Assembly (NCBI GenBank): GCA_018607135.1
Contig: JABBCA010000098.1
Location: forward strand, 62,001 to 126,000
Direction of reading: 5' to 3'
DNA: 64,000 nt
Source of the DNA: Opitutales bacterium
Lineage (GTDB): Bacteria > Verrucomicrobiota > Verrucomicrobiia > Opitutales > Coraliomargaritaceae
Of the stretch, positions 24,084-60,877 are shown one piece after another. Every line of letters starts with the position of its first letter. Position 1 is the first letter of the stretch. The position numbers and the translations under genes are program-made. Under the pieces are notes generated by a model. The model searched no databases. It was given only the letters and a program-made list of their open reading frames with translations, and was not told where the DNA came from.

Positions 24084-26003
24084 CTACATCCTTTCTCCTA
24101 GATGTATGAGGCTTCGATCTTTACGGATGGCGTTCGCATATTGAGCGTAGAGTGTCGCTAGCCTTTTGTCATATTCGCTGTTTGCTGCTGCTTTCTCTTC
24201 GCTACTTAGCGGGTCGCAAAGACCGTCAATCATGCCCTCCTTAAAAGCTTCTAGCACATAAAAACGTTCTCTTGCAGGGCTGTATTGATGGCCGCCACGT
24301 TTGCTTCCGTAGGGATCTACTTGAGACATGGTGGGGCACTCGATGTGTCCAGATAACACGGCTTCACCGTGCCTTTGTATTTTGGTTGTCGAGTTATGAT
24401 AAATTGCACTGGCGACAGCGGTCATGAGTTGGTCATTCGCTCCCAACTCTGGTGCTGATTCATACAAAAACACCACGCCTTGCATGGTATGCGAATAGTG
24501 ACCTGCGTCCTCTGGTCTTTTAAAGATGGGGCAGCCGTCGACCTTTTCATACGCCTTATCCTCGGGTTTATAAGAATAGTAAAAACCGCCGTTCTTATCA
24601 CAGAAGTGACTCTTGCTGAACCAGTGTTTGATGTATTCCCCGGCTACGTGTTGATATTGCTGAATCGCTTTTTGAAATTGATTGGTGTTCTTAAGCGTCT
24701 GCAGGTCTTCCATCGCCGCTGCAAAGATTCCAAGTGTGCCAATTCCGTTCATGGAGCGGTTGAAGGCGCGAGTTCTGAAGTCGTCAGCTAACTCTTGAGG
24801 GATGCGCATTTCTTGATCGAGCTTGGAACGCGTGCCTTCGCAGGTCGGGTGTAATACGAGATACATCGTCTTGAGAAAGTCCTCAGCCTCCGCCAACTGC
24901 TCAGGGCTCACCGAATCGGGCTTTTTTAGTGCAAGCTGTAGGGTGATGCGCGCTGAAGCGGCCATGGTAAGCATGAACGGTATTCCTTCGGGAGTGCTTG
25001 CCTTGGCTTGAGCAACCGAGGGGAACGTCTTGGCAAGTTGGTTATAGTGCCGCGCCGATTCTAATAGCTTTTCACGAAGACGCTCATCGCCCGTTGCGCG
25101 GTAGGCCATGTAGAAATCAAGCCAGTTGTGCACGGGAAAGAAAAACCGCATTACCATGAAGTTTTCCATGGAGGCTAGTGGGTCCGTAAACTGTAATTCT
25201 TGAATGCCATTCGATTTGGCTAGGGTCTCTTGAATCAAGAGTTCCAGTTCTTCCTGAGAGGGTCGGCGATCTGGAAAAAAGGCCGTCGGGGACCATCCAG
25301 AGGGAGCGACAAACTCAAAGGGCGTGCCTAACTTTGCCCATTCTTCGTCGGTGATGGAGGCGACACTTGGCCCTCTCTCGATGCAGTGATCACAAACTTT
25401 GAAGCCATCTGCCACCCAATCCTTGAGGGGGCGTCGCATGTCAGTGCGGTCTGGCCAGTAACGATGGCAGCCAGCAATATGTTTTACATTGCGCTTGTTG
25501 TCATTGCCGCAGAGCAGGGTCTCGTCGGTCAGTTTTTTCTGCGGGTGTTGTCTTTGGTAGCCAAAGAAGCAACAATTCGTGCGTCCAGACTGACCCGATT
25601 CGCCGATACGCGCTCCAGCCAGATCAGCTTCAGCTAAGGTCATGGTTTTTTTGTGCTCTTTCAGGATCAGCTCAGGGCAGTTCTCTGCATGAACACGGAA
25701 CCATAGTGCATCACGATAAACCTTCATCTTGGGATCGTAATTGAACAGCTTAGCCATGATGTCGGGACACTTGGAGCAAAGTTCAATGCGTTCAGACATC
25801 ATATCTTTCGGAGTGATCTGACTCATTTTTGCTTTTATCTGTGGGTCCGCCAGCATCGTTTCAAGACGTGGGCAACCTTCAGCGTGAGCTTTCTTGCCCT
25901 CGCCTTTCCAGATTTCCTGAGCCTGTGTTGCACTCGCGAGTAGGGATGCGCAGAGCGCTAGTGACGCAACTTTCAACAAGAGGAAAAATCTTTTTGTAGA
26001 CAT
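24084..26003 (-). CDS. Secreted protein with His-Cys/CxxC modules and an alpha-helical (toroid-like) domain
   Basis: The 639-residue protein is read from the ATG at 26003, because a signal peptide (FFLLLKVASLALCASLLASA) follows it directly; a longer frame to 26108 would bury the signal. Residues 30-80 form a module GKKAHAEGCPRL...ELCSKCP with His40, Cys44, Cys76 and Cys79, matching the triple module of the gene at 59025-59894. Two looser copies follow (RVHAENCPE; HIAGCHRYW...VCDHCIERG). From about 230 on the sequence is helical, with NWLDFYMAYRATGDERLREK and HYSHTMQGVVFLYES, resembling alpha/alpha-toroid lyases or hydrolases. No named family is recognised; enzymatic function is inferred. Confidence 0.6.
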   Translation of the reverse strand: MSTKRFFLLLKVASLALCASLLASATQAQEIWKGEGKKAHAEGCPRLETMLADPQIKAKMSQITPKDMMSERIELCSKCPDIMAKLFNYDPKMKVYRDALWFRVHAENCPELILKEHKKTMTLAEADLAGARIGESGQSGRTNCCFFGYQRQHPQKKLTDETLLCGNDNKRNVKHIAGCHRYWPDRTDMRRPLKDWVADGFKVCDHCIERGPSVASITDEEWAKLGTPFEFVAPSGWSPTAFFPDRRPSQEELELLIQETLAKSNGIQELQFTDPLASMENFMVMRFFFPVHNWLDFYMAYRATGDERLREKLLESARHYNQLAKTFPSVAQAKASTPEGIPFMLTMAASARITLQLALKKPDSVSPEQLAEAEDFLKTMYLVLHPTCEGTRSKLDQEMRIPQELADDFRTRAFNRSMNGIGTLGIFAAAMEDLQTLKNTNQFQKAIQQYQHVAGEYIKHWFSKSHFCDKNGGFYYSYKPEDKAYEKVDGCPIFKRPEDAGHYSHTMQGVVFLYESAPELGANDQLMTAVASAIYHNSTTKIQRHGEAVLSGHIECPTMSQVDPYGSKRGGHQYSPARERFYVLEAFKEGMIDGLCDPLSSEEKAAANSEYDKRLATLYAQYANAIRKDRSLIHLGERM

Positions 26004-26125
26004 ATAATAACTTTTTTGGAAACGATGGAGCTCTTGGGACATGCCAGGATAATAGTTATTAAAATGCTTGTGTAAAACTTGCAAGCCAAGACTCAGGCTT
26101 CGAGTCACTCTTGAGAGTCGGTGAC

Positions 26126-44067: not shown

Positions 44068-47000
44068 TTGAGCGCATATTTCCATAACAATACTTTTAGG
44101 CATAGAAAGCTTAGACCAATTCGTCGTAGGGATCTACTAGGTCGGCTCGGTCTTGCGCAGACATTACTCACTCTATCTTTAAGCGCTGCAATTGTAAGCG
44201 AAGGCCCTTCCGGTCTCGTGTATCAACCCTACGCGAATGAGGGGCAGACCAATGCAGTCAATACTGTCCCTGACTATTCGCGCGCAGGTTACAAGGGAGG
44301 GGGGGAGGAAATTCCTTTTGTCTCGACCGCAGTTACTGTGAACCCTTCGGGTGGCAATGACACCTCAGCGATACAAAATGCAATCAATACAGTTTCGGCC
44401 TTGCCTTTGGTGAATGGTTTCCGTGGTGCTGTTTACTTGAGTGCGGGTGACTACACTGTTTCTAGCACACTAAACATTAGTTCGAGCGGCGTAGTCATTC
44501 GAGGAGCGGGGCAACAGCAATCTGGCGGCACGCGAATTACCTACACTGCGGCCACTCAGTCGGACCTTTTTCTTTTTAATGGCAGTAGTAATCCGAATTA
44601 TGTCGGAAGTAGTGCGCGGGCGATTACAGATGCCTACGTGCCTGTTGGCTCGAAGACAGTCAACATCACTGATGCTTCTATCTACACGGTGGGTGATCTT
44701 ATTCGTATCACCAATTTAGTGAACCAAGCATGGGTGGACGATATCGGCATGACGGTCGCGGGTGGATTGGCGGGAGAGCCTAATGATCCTGCTTGGAATC
44801 CTGCAGATTTTCAGCTGACGCATTATCGCTACGTGACAGAGATCAATGGCAATGAATTAACTCTGGATGCGCCCATTGTTCAGGCCATTGAAGATCAGTA
44901 TGGTGGTGGCGAAGTTCGGCGCTATACTTTTGGAGGTGCGATTGAAAATGTTGGAATCGAAGCGATGCGCCTAGAGTCAAGTTTCACCAGCGACAATGAC
45001 GAAGACCACGGCTGGCAAGCGATTGAGATGCGGCGAGTGGTCAACGGATGGGTGCGGCAAGTCACTGCTCGATATTTTGGTATGAGTTTAATACTCATCG
45101 AAGACTTTAGCCAATTTATAACGGTTGAAGATTCGGCTTTTTTAGACCCGAAATCACAGACGACCGGTGGGCGCAAGTATTCCTTCTACATCGACGATTC
45201 GTCGTACGCGCTCTTTCAGCGCTGTCTCACGCGTGGGGGTCGCCACGATTATGTGAGCGGCTCTAAAACGCCGGGGCCTAATGTTTTTGTTGATAGCTTG
45301 GCGACTCAAGCCAACAGCGATATCGGGCCGCACTTCCGCTACGCGACAGGTGAACTTTACGATAACATTAAGAGCAATAATTCTATAAATGTTCAGAATC
45401 GATTAAATTCAGGAACCAGCCACGGCTGGTCTGGAGCGCAGGTCATGTTTTGGAATGTCGAGGCAGGTGGTATCATTTCCGATGCGCCTACTGGTGCGAT
45501 GAATTGGAGTATTGGAACAGTCGGCCCAAAGAGAGAGGGAGCTTGGGTAGCTAGTGAGCCCTTTGGTATTTGGGAATCTGAGAACGTGCCAGTCACGCCG
45601 CGTTCTTTGTATTATGCGCAGCTAGAGGAACGTCTCGGGTCTGGTGCATTGAATGAGGTCATATTACCTCAACAAATTCACGGTACTATTTGGACTGAGC
45701 TAGAAAGCTGGGATGGCAACGGCCTGATCCTAGATGCAGTCGTCTGTTGGCTCGATGACTCATCGATGCCAGCGATCAATACTCCGATCTCAATCAATGC
45801 CAGAATACGTGATTTAGCGATATTGGACGGATTATCCTCGACGACTTGGAGTCAGGTCTCGGGTCCGGGTGCGGTCAGTTTTGGTGACAGCTCACTACTC
45901 GAAACGACGGCTTCATTCTCTGCTACAGGCCAGTATACTTTACAGCTTTTAGCGGATAATGGAAGTGAACAAGCGACTGGGAACCTAGTGGTTAATGTTC
46001 TGGATCTTAGCGATCTCACGCCGCCCGCGATGCCACTATCATTGGTCGCGACTCCAGGCTTCAACTCCGTGAGTTTGGATTGGGGTGATAATGTTGAGAC
46101 CGATCTCGCAGGCTATTCTATCTATCGGACTCAGACCTCACTTAATTACGAAACGCCGCTAGATACTAACATCAGCAGTAGCGAGTATGTGGATACGTCT
46201 GCCCTCAATGGGGAAACTTACTTCTACAGGGTAGTCGCCTCCGACGTGAATGGTAATGACTCTGCGCCCAGTAGCGAAGTGTCAGCTAGTCCTGTCGATA
46301 CAGATCAGCCTCCGCATGTGAATTTTAACTTCCCAGTAGACGGAGCATCCATCGCGGCAGGGAGTGATTTGCAAGTGCAAGTCGAGGCGTCCGATCCGGA
46401 CGGCACGATTGTTCATGTGCAGCTTTTTCTTGATGGTCAACTGATACGTCAGGAGACTACCGCGCCTTATGATTGGGGGGGCTCGAATCAGAACGACTCG
46501 CCGCTGCAGAATATGGCCGCGGGGACTTACGAGCTAGAGGCTCTTGCACTCGATGATGAGGGCGACTCTACGAGTGTGAGTATTACAATTACGGTCGTGG
46601 CTGATGTCGTGCCACCAGTCAGTCCTACTGGCCTGCTTTCTGTAAAAGGAGATACGGTGATCTATCTGGATTGGGCTGATAATAACGAAGGCGATTTTTC
46701 GACTTATTCGGTCTACCGTAGGACTGGCGCAGGTAGCTATGGTGCTCCGCTTGCATCAGGGTTAACTGCTAGCACGTATACAGATACAGACGTGACTGAC
46801 GGTGTGATATATTTCTATATGGTCACTGCGCTCGACGATGCTGGAAACGAATCGAATCAAAGCGAAGAACGTTCATCGATGCCGCAAGACGTGATCGATT
46901 TTGGAACGGATTCGGGTGAGAAGACAGTGAGCGCCGCAGGTTTTACTGCTACGGTTCCTCTTGCCGATAGCTCTAATCATGTGAGCGACGCTTACCAGAT

Positions 47001-48864
47001 CGAGTCGAATCCAAATTCAGGTTTGGGCAACTTTGCTTTCTTAAAAAATTTTACTGATATGGGCGGTAGCAAGCGCAGCGATTTTTCGATGACACTGGAA
47101 GCGCGCTTGGTTTCGAAAGGCTCAGCCTTGAACAACAACTACCGTTATGGAGTGACTCTCTTTAGTGACGGTTCGGATCTTTCAAATTCCGGGATTCAAG
47201 CGCAGATTCGTTACGTTAATAGTGACCTAGTGATGGAGTTTAGGGAAGGTCTCAACGGATCAATACCTATCAGCCAAGTTTTTAAAACGGTCAGCGGGAG
47301 CGCACGGCCTTATGATTATCCTGAAGGCGAAACCTACACTATGGAAGTTACTGGGACGTACACGGATGATCATTTAGACCTATCGTTCACACTCGGAGAC
47401 GGGGCGCAGATCAAGACGATGAGCATGAGCGTGGATGCGACTCAGTATACTGGCACCTACTTTGGAGGCGCGGCTCGGATTCGAAGTGGTTTTACAGTCG
47501 ATTTTGATAATTTCTCTATGCTCACGGATGGCGTTGATACCGCTCCTTCTGCACCCTCGGGTCTTAATGCGACTGCGGGCAATGCGTTCGTTGCTCTTAG
47601 TTGGAATGACAATGGGGAGTCAGACTTCGTTGGCTACAATATATACCGAAGCACGACTGCAAATACCTTCGGAGCGCCGTATGTTTCAGGAATTGTTTCC
47701 AGCGAATATACGGACAGCATGGCAGTTAATGGGACTACTTTCTTCTATCGGATCACCGCTGTAGACCAAGCGGCAAACGAGTCCGAAGTAAGCATGGAGG
47801 TTTCCGCATTACCTGCAGCATACCTTGATGTCGCACTTGCTGCCATCGACAGTTCTTTCGTGCGGAAAGACAATGGTGTGCAGGATGCAAGCGAAACGCT
47901 TCAGATAAAAAGAAACGATTGGGGCAATGCCTTTGCCCGGATCGCGTATCTACGTTTCCAAGTGGGGGCAGGCAATCTGCTCGGTGGTATCGCGGCAAGC
48001 GATATTGATACGGCATCCTTGGATGTATTTGTTACGAGTAACGAGCCAGGAGATACGCTGCTACTCTATGGTCTGAAAAATGATGCGCAGTTCCCTGGGG
48101 CAGCTCTGTCAGAATCTACATGGACAGGTGGCTTGGACGGCACTTTAGCAGGCGGGCATAATTTACAGGGCGATTCTCGGCCCGATGGAGAGTTTGCAGT
48201 CCCGAATCCAAACACGACCACTCTATTGGGTAGTCTAACGTTTGCTGCTGGTGTGGATACTGGAGTGAAGACAGTTATGATTTCCGATTTGGCCGCTTTT
48301 CAAGATTTCATAGCCAGCGATACTAACGGAGAAATTACCTTGGTCATACGAGGCACCTTAGATGGTAGTCCCAATCAAATTGCCTCTTCATTTAATACGA
48401 GTGGCAATCCTATGCCGACTCTGTTTGCCTCTGGAGATGCTCAAAGCATGCCGCAACCTCCAGATGAAGATGGCGATGGCATGAGCGATGTATGGGAGGA
48501 ACAGTATTTCACAAGTGCACAGGTTATCGACGGCAGGGCTGACTCGGATGGTGATGGTGTCCTCGATTTTTTCGAGTATCTTTTCGACTCCAGTCCAACC
48601 GACCCTGCCAGCAAGGGTTCAAGTTTACTCATTGCGCCAGATCAGACCGGAACTGACATGGTCTTCGGATGGGAGATCAAAGAGGGCTTCGTTGTCGGGG
48701 AACATTACTTTGTTGAGGTTTCTACGGCTCTCAGCCCTTGGCTTCCAATTGCCGAAGCACACTACTCCTTGAGCGGCACCCACTCTGATGGAATCACTCG
48801 AATGGAATTGATGATTTCATTAAGCTATAGCGACTCCGTCTTTCTCAAGTTGAGAGGGCCATAG
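44068..48864 (+). CDS. Giant exported pectate-lyase-fold (right-handed beta-helix) protein with FN3 and binding modules
   Basis: The start is a TTG at 44068, backed by AGGAG six bases upstream and by the basic-hydrophobic leader (RRRDLLGRLGLAQTLLTLSL). Residues about 50-525 form a parallel beta-helix related to the protein at 57082 (shared RHDYVSGSKTPGPNVFVDS and HGWSGAQVMFWNVEAG-type segments). Then come a PKD/Ig-like region (560-647), FN3 (652-748), an Ig-like domain (749-846), FN3 (847-943), the DFG beta-sandwich also found in the gene at 21617 (945-1152), FN3 (1158-1250), a DNRLRE-like domain (1252-1465) and the C-terminal domain shared with its neighbour. Probable polysaccharide lyase or hydrolase; the catalytic residues are not clear. 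Confidence 0.82.
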   Translation: MSAYFHNNTFRHRKLRPIRRRDLLGRLGLAQTLLTLSLSAAIVSEGPSGLVYQPYANEGQTNAVNTVPDYSRAGYKGGGEEIPFVSTAVTVNPSGGNDTSAIQNAINTVSALPLVNGFRGAVYLSAGDYTVSSTLNISSSGVVIRGAGQQQSGGTRITYTAATQSDLFLFNGSSNPNYVGSSARAITDAYVPVGSKTVNITDASIYTVGDLIRITNLVNQAWVDDIGMTVAGGLAGEPNDPAWNPADFQLTHYRYVTEINGNELTLDAPIVQAIEDQYGGGEVRRYTFGGAIENVGIEAMRLESSFTSDNDEDHGWQAIEMRRVVNGWVRQVTARYFGMSLILIEDFSQFITVEDSAFLDPKSQTTGGRKYSFYIDDSSYALFQRCLTRGGRHDYVSGSKTPGPNVFVDSLATQANSDIGPHFRYATGELYDNIKSNNSINVQNRLNSGTSHGWSGAQVMFWNVEAGGIISDAPTGAMNWSIGTVGPKREGAWVASEPFGIWESENVPVTPRSLYYAQLEERLGSGALNEVILPQQIHGTIWTELESWDGNGLILDAVVCWLDDSSMPAINTPISINARIRDLAILDGLSSTTWSQVSGPGAVSFGDSSLLETTASFSATGQYTLQLLADNGSEQATGNLVVNVLDLSDLTPPAMPLSLVATPGFNSVSLDWGDNVETDLAGYSIYRTQTSLNYETPLDTNISSSEYVDTSALNGETYFYRVVASDVNGNDSAPSSEVSASPVDTDQPPHVNFNFPVDGASIAAGSDLQVQVEASDPDGTIVHVQLFLDGQLIRQETTAPYDWGGSNQNDSPLQNMAAGTYELEALALDDEGDSTSVSITITVVADVVPPVSPTGLLSVKGDTVIYLDWADNNEGDFSTYSVYRRTGAGSYGAPLASGLTASTYTDTDVTDGVIYFYMVTALDDAGNESNQSEERSSMPQDVIDFGTDSGEKTVSAAGFTATVPLADSSNHVSDAYQIESNPNSGLGNFAFLKNFTDMGGSKRSDFSMTLEARLVSKGSALNNNYRYGVTLFSDGSDLSNSGIQAQIRYVNSDLVMEFREGLNGSIPISQVFKTVSGSARPYDYPEGETYTMEVTGTYTDDHLDLSFTLGDGAQIKTMSMSVDATQYTGTYFGGAARIRSGFTVDFDNFSMLTDGVDTAPSAPSGLNATAGNAFVALSWNDNGESDFVGYNIYRSTTANTFGAPYVSGIVSSEYTDSMAVNGTTFFYRITAVDQAANESEVSMEVSALPAAYLDVALAAIDSSFVRKDNGVQDASETLQIKRNDWGNAFARIAYLRFQVGAGNLLGGIAASDIDTASLDVFVTSNEPGDTLLLYGLKNDAQFPGAALSESTWTGGLDGTLAGGHNLQGDSRPDGEFAVPNPNTTTLLGSLTFAAGVDTGVKTVMISDLAAFQDFIASDTNGEITLVIRGTLDGSPNQIASSFNTSGNPMPTLFASGDAQSMPQPPDEDGDGMSDVWEEQYFTSAQVIDGRADSDGDGVLDFFEYLFDSSPTDPASKGSSLLIAPDQTGTDMVFGWEIKEGFVVGEHYFVEVSTALSPWLPIAEAHYSLSGTHSDGITRMELMISLSYSDSVFLKLRGP
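48613..48667 (+). repeat. Near-identical 55-bp DNA segment in the shared C-terminal domain, copy 2
   Basis: Partner of 43807-43861 in the same reading frame of the adjacent giant gene; one base differs. Confidence 0.85.
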
Positions 48865-53717: not shown

Positions 53718-56153
53718 TTATTTTGTCTTGCTGGGTTCTTTGTGGTGCACGGTATATCGCTCACCTTTTTGCGTTGGAAAGGAAATTAGATCAGCTCCCT
53801 CTGAGGTGAAGGCTACTGAGTTGCCATTCGAGTCGACTACGCTCGCGCTGGTGAGGCCAGAGTATTTTAATTGGCAGTCTTTGCCACTGCGCGAATGTAG
53901 GCTGAGCTCGTTGAGCGCACGGTCTTTCCAAGTTACGGAGATTTCGAAATTACCACGTGCGACGAGGCCGCTGTAGCTGCCATTTTGCCAAGCTTCGGGA
54001 AGCGCGGGTAGTGGTTCGATGTATCCTTGATGGCTTTGCAGAAGCATTTCGACCACGCCTGCCATCATGCCGAAGTTGCCGTCGATCTGAAATGGAGGAT
54101 GCAGTGACCAGAGATTTTCACCGATCTTGTTTGCTAAGAATTTTTGATAGAGCTCCAATGACCGCTTTCCGCTGTTCAGTCTCGCCCAGCAGATCATGCG
54201 GTGTGCCATTGCCCAGCCAGTAGTTAAATCGCCGCGTAGATTGAGCGTTGTCGCGGCCGCCGCCATCCAGTCTGGATGCGACGAATTAATGAGTGTTCCA
54301 GGGTAAAGCGTGCAGAGGTGAGAAATGTGGCGGTGGAGTGGATCGCCAATCTCGCCATAGGCGTCTTCCTCACGATATTCTTTGATCTGACCCGAACTTC
54401 CGATTAAGATGGGATCGAGTAAAGGGATCTGTTCGCGAACGATATCTAGAAAAGGATCCTCTTTTCTAAGTGCTTCTGCGGCGCGAAGCACATTGTTGTG
54501 GTTCTCCCACACGAAGCCTTGGTCGAATGTGCAGCCTTCGGTCACATAATAGTTACCGTTGTGTTTTATTTCTGGTGAGGCTGAGGGCCTAATCAATAGG
54601 AGGCCTGCTTCGGTTTCGTGCAGTGCACTGGCAAAGAATTTGCTCATTTCGAGCAGTGAAGGGTAGCCCGTTTCACGGAGAAAGACCTCGTCCTGCGTAA
54701 AGTCGTAATAATCCATCAGCAGTTGAGAGGTGAAGGCGCCAGTGCCTGGTCCAGAATGAGTAGAGCGGCCCGAAATTTGATAGGCATTGGCACCTGTTCC
54801 GAGTATCCATCCGTTCTCTGCCAAATCGTCCGACAAAGCATCTGGGTTAATTTCTTGTAGGGAGTCGCGAGCGAAACGACGCGCTTGTGGTTTGTAAGCT
54901 TCGAAGTAGTCTAGATAGGCCTCAAATGTCTCGGCCAGATTCCCACTGAATGCACCCCAGTAGTTCATCTGCACGTTGATATTGTGCCAGTAGCCAGAAC
55001 ACCAAGGGCTGACTTCAAACTGTGACCATGCGCCTTGTAAGTGTGCGGGCAGCGTATTTTCTCTGGAGCTTGCAATCAAGAGGTAGCGACCATATTGAAA
55101 AAAGAGTTCTTCTAAATAGGGGTCATGCTCACCTGCTTGGTAGTCTTCCAGCAATTGATGTGTTGGAAGGTCGGATACTTCGGAATTCAGATTCACTGCA
55201 ACTCGTCCAAAAAGACTGCGGTGATCCTCAAGGTGACGGGACTTAAGAGTCTCATAGCTCAGTTGTGACGCATGTTCAATTTTGGCAGTCACTAGATCGT
55301 GCGGATAAAAATCAGGGTTGAGTTTTTCCTTTGGTTCATTGAGGAAAATGTGTGGTCCGAGCTCGTAATTAGTATGCGCAGCCACGATGAGGGTAACGGC
55401 ATCCGCGTCGTTGATTTGTATGCTCGATTCGTCGGTCACTAGTTGGCCGCCCACGGGTAGAACTTTGACCTGTATTTCGTAATTGACTTGATAGTAATCA
55501 ATCGTGCCCGCGAGTGTGATCGTATCGTCTGCCGCGGTAGTGGTTCCGGACTTGGTGTCGAGTTCGTGTCGGCTCTCAAGATAGGGGATCTCGGGGCGCA
55601 CTGTAAATGAAAGCGCACCAGGTTGGTCGGCTGTTAGATGTATCACCATTACGTCATCGGGATAACTGGTAAAATACTCTCGTTGGTAGGTCACCTCACC
55701 CGATTGGTAAGTCACCGATTTGATCGCATCATTCAGGTTGAGTGCGCGGCGGTAATTGGTGATTTGTTTATGGCCAATATCCAGATAGAGTTCTGCGGCG
55801 TTGGTAACACCGCCACGTCCGTAGGCGCTGCCGTTGGCAAAGGTTTTTTCCGATAGTTGAATGCGCTCCACATCGGTGCCGCCGAATACGCTTGCGCCGA
55901 GCATGCCATTTCCGAGTGGATAGGACCAACGCTCCCAATCTTCATCGTAGGGATAGCCGCGGCCTGGTTTCTCGATGTCAAAATCGTGTCCGCGATTGGG
56001 TGCAGGTGCGGGTTCCCAAAGTTCGTAAGTGCGAGTCGTCAGGGACGGTTCGGCAACGACCTCAGTGTCGTGATTGACACACGCTTGCGTGAATAAGGTC
56101 GATGCGATCAGCGCAAGGCCTGCACGGGTTTTTGCAAAATTAGAATGAGTCAT
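53718..56153 (-). CDS. Alpha-L-fucosidase, glycoside hydrolase family 95, lipoprotein
   Basis: The ATG at 56153 gives 811 residues with a lipoprotein signal (LALIASTLFTQAC, Cys25). GH95 features in order are WERWSYPLGNGMLGASVFGG and ERIQLSEKTF in the N-terminal beta domain, LQGAWSQFEVSPWCSGYWHN then INVQMNYWGAF at the start of the alpha/alpha barrel, EGCTFDQGFVWENHNNV, and DPLHRHISHLCTLYPG. The family removes alpha-1,2-linked fucose (or sometimes galactose) with inversion. It complements the GH29 enzyme on the opposite strand. It lies 28 bp after the upstream DUF1961-like gene. Confidence 0.94.
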   Translation of the reverse strand: MTHSNFAKTRAGLALIASTLFTQACVNHDTEVVAEPSLTTRTYELWEPAPAPNRGHDFDIEKPGRGYPYDEDWERWSYPLGNGMLGASVFGGTDVERIQLSEKTFANGSAYGRGGVTNAAELYLDIGHKQITNYRRALNLNDAIKSVTYQSGEVTYQREYFTSYPDDVMVIHLTADQPGALSFTVRPEIPYLESRHELDTKSGTTTAADDTITLAGTIDYYQVNYEIQVKVLPVGGQLVTDESSIQINDADAVTLIVAAHTNYELGPHIFLNEPKEKLNPDFYPHDLVTAKIEHASQLSYETLKSRHLEDHRSLFGRVAVNLNSEVSDLPTHQLLEDYQAGEHDPYLEELFFQYGRYLLIASSRENTLPAHLQGAWSQFEVSPWCSGYWHNINVQMNYWGAFSGNLAETFEAYLDYFEAYKPQARRFARDSLQEINPDALSDDLAENGWILGTGANAYQISGRSTHSGPGTGAFTSQLLMDYYDFTQDEVFLRETGYPSLLEMSKFFASALHETEAGLLLIRPSASPEIKHNGNYYVTEGCTFDQGFVWENHNNVLRAAEALRKEDPFLDIVREQIPLLDPILIGSSGQIKEYREEDAYGEIGDPLHRHISHLCTLYPGTLINSSHPDWMAAAATTLNLRGDLTTGWAMAHRMICWARLNSGKRSLELYQKFLANKIGENLWSLHPPFQIDGNFGMMAGVVEMLLQSHQGYIEPLPALPEAWQNGSYSGLVARGNFEISVTWKDRALNELSLHSRSGKDCQLKYSGLTSASVVDSNGNSVAFTSEGADLISFPTQKGERYTVHHKEPSKTK

Positions 56154-56181
56154 GTTGTGTGTATGAGGTGAGGTAATAGAG

Positions 56182-56991
56182 TTAAATGCTTTCAACTAAG
56201 AAGTCGCGGTAGATATATTGTTTCGTGGACATGTGCCGTAGGCCAATTCGCCCCTTTTGAATTAATTTAGGTTCTCGGTTTTCCGAGACCTGTGATGTGT
56301 TCCATGTATGGTCGGCGTAAATCTTGCCTGACTTCGTGCCTGACAACACGAGGCGAACCGACTCAGCCGTTTTTTCAATCATTACTGTGTAAGATTTACC
56401 TGGAACCATGGGCTCATAATCTACCATGGGTTCAATGATTCCGCGCCCTGGATACCAATTGCCTTCAGGGTCCTTCCAAGGGTAGCGCCGACAGCGGAGG
56501 TTTTCTCGAAAACTAAGGCTGATGAGATCCATGTTGAGAAAATACTTATCCATGCCTGGAATCTCTCGCAGTTCATTCCATTCGGTGATGTCTTCAGTGA
56601 ATGGATGCGTGCCGATACCTTGGGCTTGTATGTAAAGTAATATATTGCCGAAACCGTCTGTGTCCACCGGCATGATTTCATAGCTAATGCGAATGTCTCC
56701 CTCAAAGACTTGCTTTGTCCAAAGCACCGCGTGGTGAGCATGGTATTCCTCGGGGTCCATTCGTTTCGTGACCGTGCCCGCGGAGAAATACAGGCCACCT
56801 TCACGATGCTCTAAGGTCGCTTTATGGCCGTCGAGGAACCAGTTCTCCTGCCAATTTTCGCTCATGGAGTCGCGTAGTAGTTGAGTTTCGTTCGGCTTCG
56901 TATGGGCTGTTTTGCTTTCTTGATCGACGGTGACGCAGGCGGTCATTGAAAGCGAGAAAAGCAGGAGGCTGAGTGTGGTTACTGGCTTCAT
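56182..56991 (-). CDS. Lipoprotein with a DUF1961/concanavalin-like domain
   Basis: This 269-residue protein has a lipobox signal (LFSLSMTAC, Cys19). The body (GGLYFSAGTVTKR, HAVLWTKQVFEGDIRISYEI, FGNILLYIQAQGIGTHPFTE) resembles YesU/DUF1961 proteins, which have a concanavalin-like sandwich and occur in polysaccharide loci. It probably binds or cleaves oligosaccharide on the cell surface; no catalytic residue can be named with confidence. It sits between the beta-helix gene and GH95 on the same strand and is likely part of that operon. Confidence 0.68.
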   Translation of the reverse strand: MKPVTTLSLLLFSLSMTACVTVDQESKTAHTKPNETQLLRDSMSENWQENWFLDGHKATLEHREGGLYFSAGTVTKRMDPEEYHAHHAVLWTKQVFEGDIRISYEIMPVDTDGFGNILLYIQAQGIGTHPFTEDITEWNELREIPGMDKYFLNMDLISLSFRENLRCRRYPWKDPEGNWYPGRGIIEPMVDYEPMVPGKSYTVMIEKTAESVRLVLSGTKSGKIYADHTWNTSQVSENREPKLIQKGRIGLRHMSTKQYIYRDFLVESI

Positions 56992-57081: not shown

Positions 57082-59104
57082 TTAATGGATGATCTTTTTG
57101 GCGCGGGTCTCACCAATACGATCAATCAATTGCTGTTTAAATAGACTGCGAGGTTCTACCGCGGCGAGGGGGCTTTCGATGTGGCCGTTACCTACAATAG
57201 CGAAACCGTAATATTTGCCCTCATTGGGTGTGCCCCAGTATCCAGCTCGGGTATTCGCATAGTAGAGGCTATTGGTATCGTAGCTCTCCTTGACTTGTCC
57301 TGTAAAACCGATGGCAAAATTATTCTCACCTTCAGTTTCAGGATCGAACACGGTAATGCTATCTGCATTGCAGTTCCAAAAGACTGTATTGGCGCCTGCC
57401 CAGCCGTGTCCTGAGCCGGAGTCGCCACGGTTGAAGGCTCCCAGTTTTCCACCTTCGAGTTTGGTCACGTTGTCGTAGAGCGTGCCGACGCCCCATCGTG
57501 CATGGGGCTCTGAAGTTCCACCACGGCGGGCCGTGCAGTCGACGAATGCATTCGGGCCAGGTGTGCGCGCATTAACCACGAAGTCGTGGCGCCCTTCCTC
57601 GGAAGTGCATTTGTAAAATAAGACGCCCATGCTGCCACCTATGGAATAGGTGTAATAGCGGCCGCCCCGTTTAGGACCTACTGGCTCGAGTGATTGGCAG
57701 TCGCGAACTGTAATAAATTGAGAACCTTCGACTTTGACTGCAGACAGCCAGACATGCTTGACCAGGACGTCGCGCACCCAGCTGTGGCGACCGTTGACTT
57801 GCACGCCATTTTTCAAATTTCCGAAATCGGCCTCTTTGCCAGTGTCCACCACTTGAGTGTCGTAGTTTGAAATGACTCGCAGCGATTCCACCCCAGATTG
57901 CATGCTAGTAGTTTTCGGCTTCCATAGGCTGACATTGCCTCCTCCGTGTGCTGGATCAAAAGACTGGGGTAGAGGAACATCCAGAGTGATGGTGTTACCG
58001 CTGATTGCGGTGATCTGGCGGGGGTGGCTGTAGTTTTGCAAGCCCCATGGTTTTTTAAATGCACCTTCTTTACCTCCACGAATGTGGCGTAAGCGCTCAC
58101 CGACACCGAGTCGTTCGATCCATGCCTCGTTGGTCGTTTTAGCCACGTTAATGTGGTCGCCAACTTTAAAGCCAGTCGTATTTTCTAAGGTGAGCAATCG
58201 ACTCCCCGAGGGTGTGTAAGTATCGGCGATTGCGCTGCTGGCTGTGGCATTGGTTTCTTGTTCTACAGGCAGTATGAGGTCGCTGGGTAGTGTAGCCGCT
58301 GCTTGGTCGGATGGACTGTGTTTGAAAGACTCGGGGTATGTTTTGTGCAATTGAGTGTGAGTCTCTCCGCCTAGGCTCGTAATTTGGGTTGAAAAGGTCA
58401 GTGTGACACGCTCATTGAGAATCTCGTCGTAGCTGAAACCCGCTTGTGCACGTGGCGTGTGAACTCGAAAAGTATTTCCATCATCCATCGTGAACAAGTA
58501 GCCCGGCTTGCCGTTTTCCAGCACGATCTCAGAGACGATTCCAGTAATCTCCGCAGTGCCATTGATTGTGGAGCCACCACCCGCTTCACCGATTTGGATG
58601 CCCACGCTACCCGTATTTGAGGGTGTGAAGATCAGTGTGGTGCCATTTTCGCCGCTACCTTCACCGCGGAGCACAACGCCGGAGCGAATGAGGAGCGCAC
58701 CACTGAGATACCAATGCCCTTGTTGTAATAATACCGCGCCACGGTGGCCGTTTGCATCTGGCTCCATTGCTGCCACCTCGTTGAGCGCTGCTTGGATCGT
58801 GGCAAAGCTGTCGTGGCCGACTGGATATTTCATGTTACCTGAAGCGGCTACTTCACTGTTAGGTGCTTCAAGTGTAACTGTGACTGGGACATTCGGTAGT
58901 GGTAGTTCGCTTTTTTGGTAGCCACAGAAGGAAAAATCGATGATTTGATCACCGCGATCGCTATATGGTTTGTAGATCAATTGCCCCTCTTCATTTTTCG
59001 AAACTAGAGGCGCCCGTTGGCTTTCTATAAACTGAGCAACTGGAGGGTTCCAAGCATCGGCACTGTTAGTTGGAGGTTGCTGGACCCAGGATTCAGGCAG
59101 TCCG
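57082..59104 (-). CDS. Right-handed beta-helix (pectate-lyase superfamily) part of a frameshifted gene
   Basis: This frame is open from just after an A9 run to 57082 and encodes about 674 residues. It lacks a start: no ATG occurs before the conserved region, the first usable codon is a TTG at 58980, and the segment upstream of it (LPESWVQQPPTNSADAWNPP, then VAQFIESQRAPLV) is clearly coding. It lacks a signal peptide. The beta-helix matches the gene at 44068 (GRHDFVVNARTPGPNAFVD; HGWAGANTVFWNCNAD). Most simply it is the C-terminal two thirds of the gene that starts at 59894, reached by a +1 base slip at 59106-59114. Likely role: polysaccharide lyase or glycosidase. Confidence 0.75.
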
Positions 59105-59894
59105 CTTTTTTTTTATTCACCTCTGATGACGATTGGGCACTTTTGGAGCTTCCGCTATTTGGGCAGCGTGAGCAGGTCTCGAGTCCTTGCGCGAGCGCCT
59201 CCGCATAAGTCATTTGCTTCATGGCTGCGATTTCCTCAGGGTCCGTAGGCATGCGTCGGCAGTCTTTGAAATGGACTCGTTTTTTGCCAGTCCAGTAAAC
59301 CAGCGTGTCGCTAGAGATTCCAGCATTGGCACCAGCGCTTACACTAGCGGTCGCGCTCTTGGGAGCGGTAGCAGTAGTCCCAGCGCCTGCGGCGCTTAGG
59401 GCACCTGGGCAGCGTGAGCAAGTTTCGAGTCCCTGCGCGAGCGCTTGAGCATGAGTCATTTGAGTCATGCCTGCGATCTCGGCAGGATCCGTAGGCATGC
59501 GTCGACAGTCTTTGAAGTGGACTCGTTTTTTGCCTGACCAGTAGACTTGAGTGTCGTCAGAGATTTCGGTATTAGCATCAGCACTTGCTGCAGCTGCGGC
59601 AGAGTTTGGAGTGGCAGTGGCAGTCGTTCCTGCGTCGGTGGCACTCGTTGTGCCAGGGCAACGTGAGCAAAGAGGTAAATTCTGTGCGGTCGCCTCTGCG
59701 TATGTGATTGCACTATGGTTGGCTTTTTCTTCTGCCGACAGCTTGTAGTAGCGTGGGCAATCTGCTTGGTGCACGCGTTTCTTGCCCGCGTGGTAGACTG
59801 TGGTGTCACCTGAAATGCTCGTTGCAGATGCAGGGGATAAAGCGAATAAGAGCACAATCAGCGCAAGAAAGGAGGGGGCAGTGTAACGTTTCAT
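59025..59894 (-). CDS. Secreted triple His-Cys/CxxC-module protein, N-terminal part of a frameshifted gene
   Basis: The ATG at 59894 begins a signal peptide (APSFLALIVLLFALSPASA). Three modules follow with ligands His42/Cys46/Cys76/Cys79, His126/Cys130/Cys159/Cys162 and His208/Cys212/Cys241/Cys244; consensus is VYW-GKKRVHFKDCRR ... LETCSRCP. Modules 2 and 3 are also very alike as DNA, with a 243-bp period. Linkers are Ala/Thr/Ser-rich. In the genomic frame the protein ends after 289 residues with a short out-of-family tail that overlaps the beta-helix coding region. Without the shift it would be a small secreted, possibly zinc-binding protein; with it, a 937-residue module-beta-helix fusion. 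Confidence 0.7.
   Translation of the reverse strand: MKRYTAPSFLALIVLLFALSPASATSISGDTTVYHAGKKRVHQADCPRYYKLSAEEKANHSAITYAEATAQNLPLCSRCPGTTSATDAGTTATATPNSAAAAASADANTEISDDTQVYWSGKKRVHFKDCRRMPTDPAEIAGMTQMTHAQALAQGLETCSRCPGALSAAGAGTTATAPKSATASVSAGANAGISSDTLVYWTGKKRVHFKDCRRMPTDPEEIAAMKQMTYAEALAQGLETCSRCPNSGSSKSAQSSSEVNKKKADCLNPGSSNLQLTVPMLGTLQLLSL
59106..59114 (-). other. A9 run: candidate slippage site or sequencing/assembly indel
   Basis: On the coding strand nine consecutive A residues (codons AAA AAA AAA after AAT) lie at the point where the triple-module frame must shift to join the beta-helix frame. One extra A in the message gives KKKSGLPESW and a continuous 937-residue protein. A TAA immediately upstream closes the beta-helix frame in the genome. 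Confidence 0.75.
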
Positions 59895-60877
59895 TACACT
59901 AATCTTGCACGAAGCTGAAACTATGCAAGATTTCAATTAATAAATATTGCGCATATGACTTAGCTTTGGTGTTAGTTGGCTTGAGTTGGGTATTAATCAA
60001 TGATTTCAGTGTTTTGCCCAACGCATTGGTTATTCAGCTCCTTGGATCTCTCTTGCACGGGGTTGGTCACTGGTAAACCCACGGCGATCTCAGTCGCACT
60101 CTGACACTGTCCCAGCTGTCTTAGGCGAAATCATCTGGCTGTTGAATTCTGTGTTCTTTATAGGAGTGGAAGGTGCTACTTTAAGGCTATGAAACGATTG
60201 GAAGTAGAGCCTCTGCTTGCAGAGTGCCGACTGTAGAACTGTCTCAAATAGAAAACTACAGTGAATTTACTATTGAAACTGACCGAAAGCTCACACTTTG
60301 GCTACGGATCATGTTTTGTAGCCAAGTCAGTAACGATTTGGTCATTTTTTGGACAGTTGCTTAGGCCGAGCCCTACCTTGACGCGTATCTGCTTGGCATC
60401 GTGCAAGCACAGCCCTCCGTTCAGTCGTCAATAAATAAGGGTATTTACAGACTAAAACAGGTTCAATTTCTGCCATTCGGAGCAAGGGCTGTTGCGCCTA
60501 TTGAAGCATGAACACTACTTAAATTCTCGGGTGCCCTTAACTGGGTCTGATTCGCGAGCCTGCGACGAGTTCCCCTCTGACGCTTCTATACGCCCTGTTG
60601 TGAAGATGAGCGTTTAAACTCCTTGGGAATGGCAGTGCATGTAGTCGTTTTTCACGCGATGCCTATAGTTCTTTTCAAGCAATAAACCTCTGTTGAGACA
60701 GTATTCGAGGGTTGCTATTACCATAGAAAACGTAGCTCTGCATACTTAATTTGAATTTTTGCGAACTAATATAACTAATAAAAGCGATAAATATTAAAAA
60801 AACCTTGCGCCGTCATCTGGTTGAGGACATATTAAATGGTCCAGTATCGATTTATTAACCCAAACATACACTCCTAC
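59895..60877. other. Long intergenic region with repeat remnant
   Basis: About 980 bp between divergent genes. It holds the second copy of a dispersed repeat (60237-60305), an 8-bp hairpin TTGGCTAC/GTAGCCAA (60298-60325), and a 10-bp inverted pair ACTGTCTCAA (60239-60248) with TTGAGACAGT (near 60692-60701). This could be the remains of a small mobile element. I saw no gene. An AT-rich stretch near 60.77-60.81 kb may carry the promoter of the PEP-CTERM gene. Confidence 0.45.
60237..60305 (+). repeat. Dispersed intergenic repeat, copy 2
   Basis: Sixty-nine bases from AACTGTCTCAAA to GGCTAC, matching the reverse strand of 36684-36754 at about 80% by eye. Its right end overlaps a short hairpin that continues to 60325. 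Confidence 0.7.

Follow-up and report, generated by a model that had tools for sequence, protein, structure and literature searches.

Reading frames that are disrupted at runs of nine A residues, and whose homologues occupy a single ORF, have been described as 'pseudo-pseudogenes' (Baranov et al. 2005, PMC1088944). In many genomes, selection against slippage can be seen from a run length of nine on (PMC1088944). For the E. coli RNA polymerase, A-runs are reported to be less slippage-prone than T-runs, and slippage was not detectable on runs of fewer than eight A's (PMC6260861). In tssM1 of Citrobacter rodentium, a run of eleven A's is followed by a premature stop, and an added A restores the full-length protein (PMC4256274). 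Transcriptional slippage was also proposed in the GeneTack study for dnaX genes that consist of two ORFs and contain ten A's (PMC3711429).

The gene described here matches the 'pseudo-pseudogene' class, and its mechanism would not be a new one. It is encoded on the minus strand of a window of 64,000 nucleotides (the whole stretch of DNA that was analysed) from an Opitutales bacterium. As in the genes of that class, nine A's (A9) lie exactly at the frame change, one insertion restores the frame and a homologue is found in a single ORF (PMC1088944), but the product here would be a secreted enzyme that acts on polysaccharides and carries a module array, and slippage is something that we infer. 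The gene shares with tssM1 a premature stop after the A-run and a full-length protein reached through an added A, although for tssM1 the restoration was demonstrated experimentally and both forms are needed (PMC4256274), whereas for the present gene we infer it. With the two-ORF dnaX that has ten A's (PMC3711429) it shares an A9/A10 run and a long product for which the frame must shift the same way, and the A9/A10 run is also what it has in common with the Thermus dnaX (A9). The reading that we favor, with barely better than even confidence, is that one secreted gene is split at the A9 run and that its full protein is made by means of RNA polymerase slippage.

As the earlier note had described, two frames overlap with an offset of one base and meet at nine A's, and all of its coordinates were right (Table 1). 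The module frame, which has an earlier in-frame TTG at 59936, reads the run as AAT AAA AAA AAA GCG and continues for about 25 further codons (ADCLNPG...LLSL) to its stop. The claim that the beta-helix frame is blocked upstream by a TAA and lacks both an ATG and a signal peptide was likewise borne out, with neither a signal peptide nor a start codon found in that frame upstream of TTG 58980. This TTG is inside the conserved domain (GQLIYKPY), and a start there drops the invariant G43 of P0002. When one extra A is read at the run, the product has the 937 residues that had been predicted. Its stretch across the junction is KKKSGLPESWVQ, and the junction of the fused frame reads CSRCPNSGSSKSAQSSSEVNKKK-SG-LPESWVQQPP.

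Table 1. Positions in the window of the features of the split gene and its neighbours.
Feature	Position	Strand	Remarks
Module frame (0-frame ORF)	59025..59894	-	289 aa, from ATG 59894 to the stop at 59025; signal peptide, three Cys/His modules and linker
Apparent signal peptide	59823..59894	-	MKRYTAPSFLALIVLLFALSPASA; judged by eye
Module 1	59652..59810	-	H-x3-C ... C-x2-C, DUF6233-like
Module 2	59403..59558	-	
Module 3	59157..59312	-	
TAA	59113..59115	-	closes beta-helix frame upstream; overlaps first two A's of run
A9 run	59106..59114	-	T9 on + strand at exactly these positions
LPESWV motif	59083..59100	-	just downstream of A9 run; conserved in both orthologues (G529, G503)
Beta-helix frame	57082..59112	-	676 codons + stop; one base out of phase with module frame
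TTG	58978..58980	-	first ATG/GTG/TTG of beta-helix frame
~110-residue insert in beta-helix	58240..58581	-	absent from aligned homologues, mostly low-confidence in model; perhaps a lid or an additional small domain
DUF1961-type lipoprotein-like gene	56182..56991	-	adjoins beta-helix gene
GH95 gene	53718..56195	-	downstream, same orientation

The stretch between the A9 run and TTG 58980, which had been called plainly coding, does code in the beta-helix frame. Its codon score in this frame (0.003) is above those of wrong frames (97.5th percentiles of -0.05 and -0.08) and within the 2.5-97.5% range of coding sequence (-0.04 to 0.26), and the residues encoded there, APLVSKNEEGQLIYKPY, can be aligned to the consensus LVxxGEDGxLxYxPY that the homologues share, with the invariant G43 column upstream of the TTG among the aligned positions. 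Since the TAA blocks the frame upstream and homology resumes at LPESWV (59100), the frame change must fall within about 12 bases, which are essentially the A-run. The chance that a uniformly placed frame break would land in the A9 run is about 0.3%, and the 3.53 Mb of the genome contain approximately 23 A/T runs that are at least nine bases long. That the offset of the two frames is itself not a matter of chance follows from the homology that runs across the junction. The modules and the beta-helix are one gene, whose frame is broken by one base within a homopolymer. Two independent genes were considered and rejected, given the lack of a start before TTG 58980, the lack of a signal peptide and the homology across the junction. 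No consensus promoter match was found near 59000-59200. Automatic annotation would report this locus either as two genes, one for a small secreted protein and one for an unsecreted beta-helix protein, or as a pseudogene.

The earlier note had proposed that the two parts form a single gene joined through a frame change at the A-run, and had suggested a comparison of run and frame among orthologues. A syntenic orthologue from another family of the phylum (G529; L069/L072) has the two parts fused within a reading frame of 712 codons that is open throughout, in the order signal peptide, one module, CSRCPGSSTPGKGQAGAGNK-LPESWVQPAPP... and beta-helix. Its local matches to the present gene show 60% identity over 385 aa, and 49% over the 171 aa that begin at LPESWV. 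The orthologue in G503 has no modules, and its own signal peptide directly precedes LPESWV, which is thus placed at the mature N-terminus. A DUF1961-type gene like the one that adjoins the split gene is also found beside both orthologues (55% identity in G529 and 41% in G503). Because of these two architectures and the DUF1961 flanks, the fused frame is judged to be the native one, with the module array as an optional N-terminal addition. Two genes with independent starts and a signal peptide apiece were sought among the orthologues and not found. The comparison thus upheld the single frame, in G529, but not the run: G529 reads GGAAACAAGCTACCC at the junction site, the A-run is absent from both G529 and G503, and no closer orthologue was found. 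None was found in other genomes of the same genus, the bacterium's own family yielded distant homologues only, and searches of genome contigs, plasmids and viral contigs gave two distant matches, homologues of about 33% identity and no useful result, respectively.

The modules match DUF6233 (PF19746) marginally, at 28.1 bits over three stretches versus a Pfam gathering score of 27.6, and a literature search on DUF6233 gave nothing. K, H, C, R, C and C are invariant across the five modules of the window; the H-C-C-C set is kept, and the modules are putatively of a metal-binding type. A profile (A1) built from these five led to further modules elsewhere in the phylum. Elsewhere in the genome and in the phylum, the frames that clearly bear modules have 592-712 open codons, and those inspected also include an enzyme domain or a long unassigned domain, some being sulfatases with C-terminal modules. 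The 289-residue product is the sole stand-alone module array that was found in the genome and the sampled phylum. Two paralogous secreted proteins of 54% identity, at 24084-26108 (-) of the window and at L046:1156-2928 (G000:C69), have N-terminal Cys/His modules that are in frame and followed by a long domain without a Pfam match. Sulfatases from other families of the phylum (L067 and L068, in G620 and G645) have one or two C-terminal Cys/His modules, and a similar H-C...C-x2-C module is apparently inserted within a beta-helix protein of G503 (L078).

The confident region of the structural model (pTM 0.77) is predicted to be a right-handed parallel beta-helix. The model matched 8ja4 with a Z of 27.4 (268 residues at 2.3 A) and the AlgE epimerases (A-modules) with a Z of about 27, with polygalacturonases and lyases close behind; a single-sequence PDB search gave no useful match for the protein. 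A right-handed beta-helix is also the fold of PL29 (BT3328, PMC9067506) and of the AlgE and 7chu lyases/epimerases. The NCBIfam model of PL29, the BT3328 family (NF058554), is matched at 19.2 bits (E 2.9e-4) against a cut-off of 1100 bits, and of the 12 homologues in the alignment, 11 are matched by the BT3328 model with E values no higher than 0.01, the best being 1.6e-15. The protein is thus distantly related to PL29, but since it is so far below the family cut-off we have not filed it there. Its activity is a prediction; it is probably a lyase or hydrolase that acts on an algal-type sulfated polysaccharide. Homologues of the beta-helix are found in 54 of 373 genomes of the order, and as a rule the ones inspected have no module and begin with a signal-peptide-like sequence a short way ahead of the conserved domain.

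The beta-helix part does not look decayed. Changes at conserved sites, taken as those shared by 10 or more of the 11 other homologues, amount to 9 of 99 here, compared with 10 of 102 in the intact G529 orthologue and 8 of 99 in that of G503. With 676 codons open and conserved-site changes like those of intact orthologues, the gene has no long history as a pseudogene, although a young break would be equally compatible with an undecayed beta-helix.

A precedent for the required frame change is present in the same genome. Among its A/T runs of at least nine is an A10 in dnaX (L060 run at 2015-2024, G000:C74:70514-70523), where the 0-frame stops one codon after the run (EKKKP*) and another frame continues for 107 aa. 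The frame change needed for the long subunit has the same direction as in the module/beta-helix gene. Of 30 dnaX loci of the family (L144-L173), 26 have A10, three have A9 and one has no run; in all 29 with a run, that of this genome among them, a stop is reached in the 0-frame no more than one codon later, while the other frame stays open for 107 aa or more. These loci differ in the bases that follow the run (AAG or AAC endings), and downstream of the run in the dnaX of this genome no RNA structure beyond that of shuffled sequences was found, which points to the run itself as the conserved element. This pattern of conservation fits transcriptional slippage, and runs of nine appear to be sufficient for it in at least three genomes of the family. 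The precedent differs from the present gene in its conservation: the run is kept in 29 of the 30 family dnaX loci, whereas that of the present gene is in none of the orthologues found, and slippage at A9 is therefore not conserved as it is in dnaX.

By what mechanism, then, might the full protein be made? Readout by RNA polymerase slippage at A9 is plausible. One ancestral gene would have encoded a secreted protein of about 937 residues, with a signal peptide, three modules, a linker with LPESWVQ and the beta-helix enzyme. The linker would have gained the A-run in the present lineage, and a length of nine would place the two halves one base out of frame. If the run is also nine in the cell, the full protein most probably comes from a fraction of transcripts in which RNA polymerase adds one A, and the 289-residue module-only protein would be the default by-product. 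Slippage by the polymerase is favored over slippage by the ribosome because no RNA structure beyond shuffles was found downstream of A9 (z = 0.06 and 1.07, in a model of pseudoknot-free folds) or in the dnaX of the genome. Points against slippage are the absence of the run from both orthologues, the lower tendency to slip on A-runs than on T-runs that is reported for the E. coli enzyme (PMC6260861), and the early stop, which leaves about 1.9 kb untranslated and could cause polarity, possibly on the GH95 gene.

An alternative explanation, less probable than slippage yet one to be taken seriously, is that the run was miscounted in sequencing or assembly, so that in the true genome it is longer by one A and the gene is intact. 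Such errors arise most often in homopolymers, the assembly is a draft of 106 contigs, and the fused frame is the ancestral one. On the other hand, A/T runs of nine within other coding frames (L049, L062 and L065) keep the frame, as do 8-base runs judged to be intragenic in 1.2 Mb, and the dnaX A10 has the identical length in a genome of the same genus (G010). The four candidate breaks that a scan of the 1.2 Mb picked out, all at 7-8-base runs, did not hold up: of two that were read through, one is a gene boundary and the other the end of an intact gene, and in the remaining two the run was past the stop of the upstream frame. The scan was crude and can miss cases, as the present gene itself went unflagged with its module part below threshold, and it gave no convincing break among 7-8-base runs; a systematic homopolymer error in the assembly was accordingly rejected.

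It is also possible, but rather unlikely, that the run underwent a real and recent contraction, inactivating or phase-variable, that leaves the beta-helix off in this strain with no meaningful rescue. An in-frame A10 would be prone to replication slippage, and an undecayed beta-helix is equally to be expected after a young event. However, runs of nine or more A's are transcribed imprecisely in many bacteria (PMC1088944) and the family keeps A9 or A10 in dnaX, so that some full-length mRNA is to be expected even then.

Still less likely is that A9 serves as a natural switch, through slippage and/or a reversible A9/A10 change, that sets the balance of enzyme versus free module array. Were this the case, slippage would control a carbohydrate enzyme in a lineage in which dnaX, too, apparently relies on slippage at an A-run. 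The stricter form, in which free modules and fusion are both functional and their ratio is set by slippage, seems improbable. It would resemble the gamma/tau architecture of dnaX in the same genome and would be analogous to tssM, both forms of which are needed (PMC4256274), but the sampled phylum yielded no further module-only protein, and modules are entirely absent from the G503 orthologue. Nor is a conserved two-product switch supported, since the A-run is in none of the orthologues found. Of the regulated slippage that the earlier note had put forward, slippage as such has a conserved precedent at A9-A10 runs, in the required direction, in dnaX of the same genome and family; the regulated pair of products was not supported, with orthologues that lack the run and other clear module-bearing frames that belong to longer proteins. 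It is very improbable that the fusion arises through a programmed -1 frameshift of the ribosome on A AAA AAA G, for although this shift-prone heptamer is present in the right phase and a candidate SD-like AGAGGTG is located at 59124-59118, there is no downstream RNA structure beyond shuffles and the site is not conserved.

If slippage by RNA polymerase is confirmed, it would be wrong to dismiss other apparently 'broken' genes of this bacterial family that have A9 or longer runs, as dnaX suggests that frame changes at runs of this kind are in routine use there. Other proteins of the window resemble sulfatases and a GH29-type fucosidase, as judged by eye, and the locus is consistent with the use of a fucose-rich sulfated polysaccharide. 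The same polysaccharide locus also includes a 1598-residue beta-helix protein of the same family (window 44068-48864, + strand), which has Ig-like and other domains at its C-terminus.
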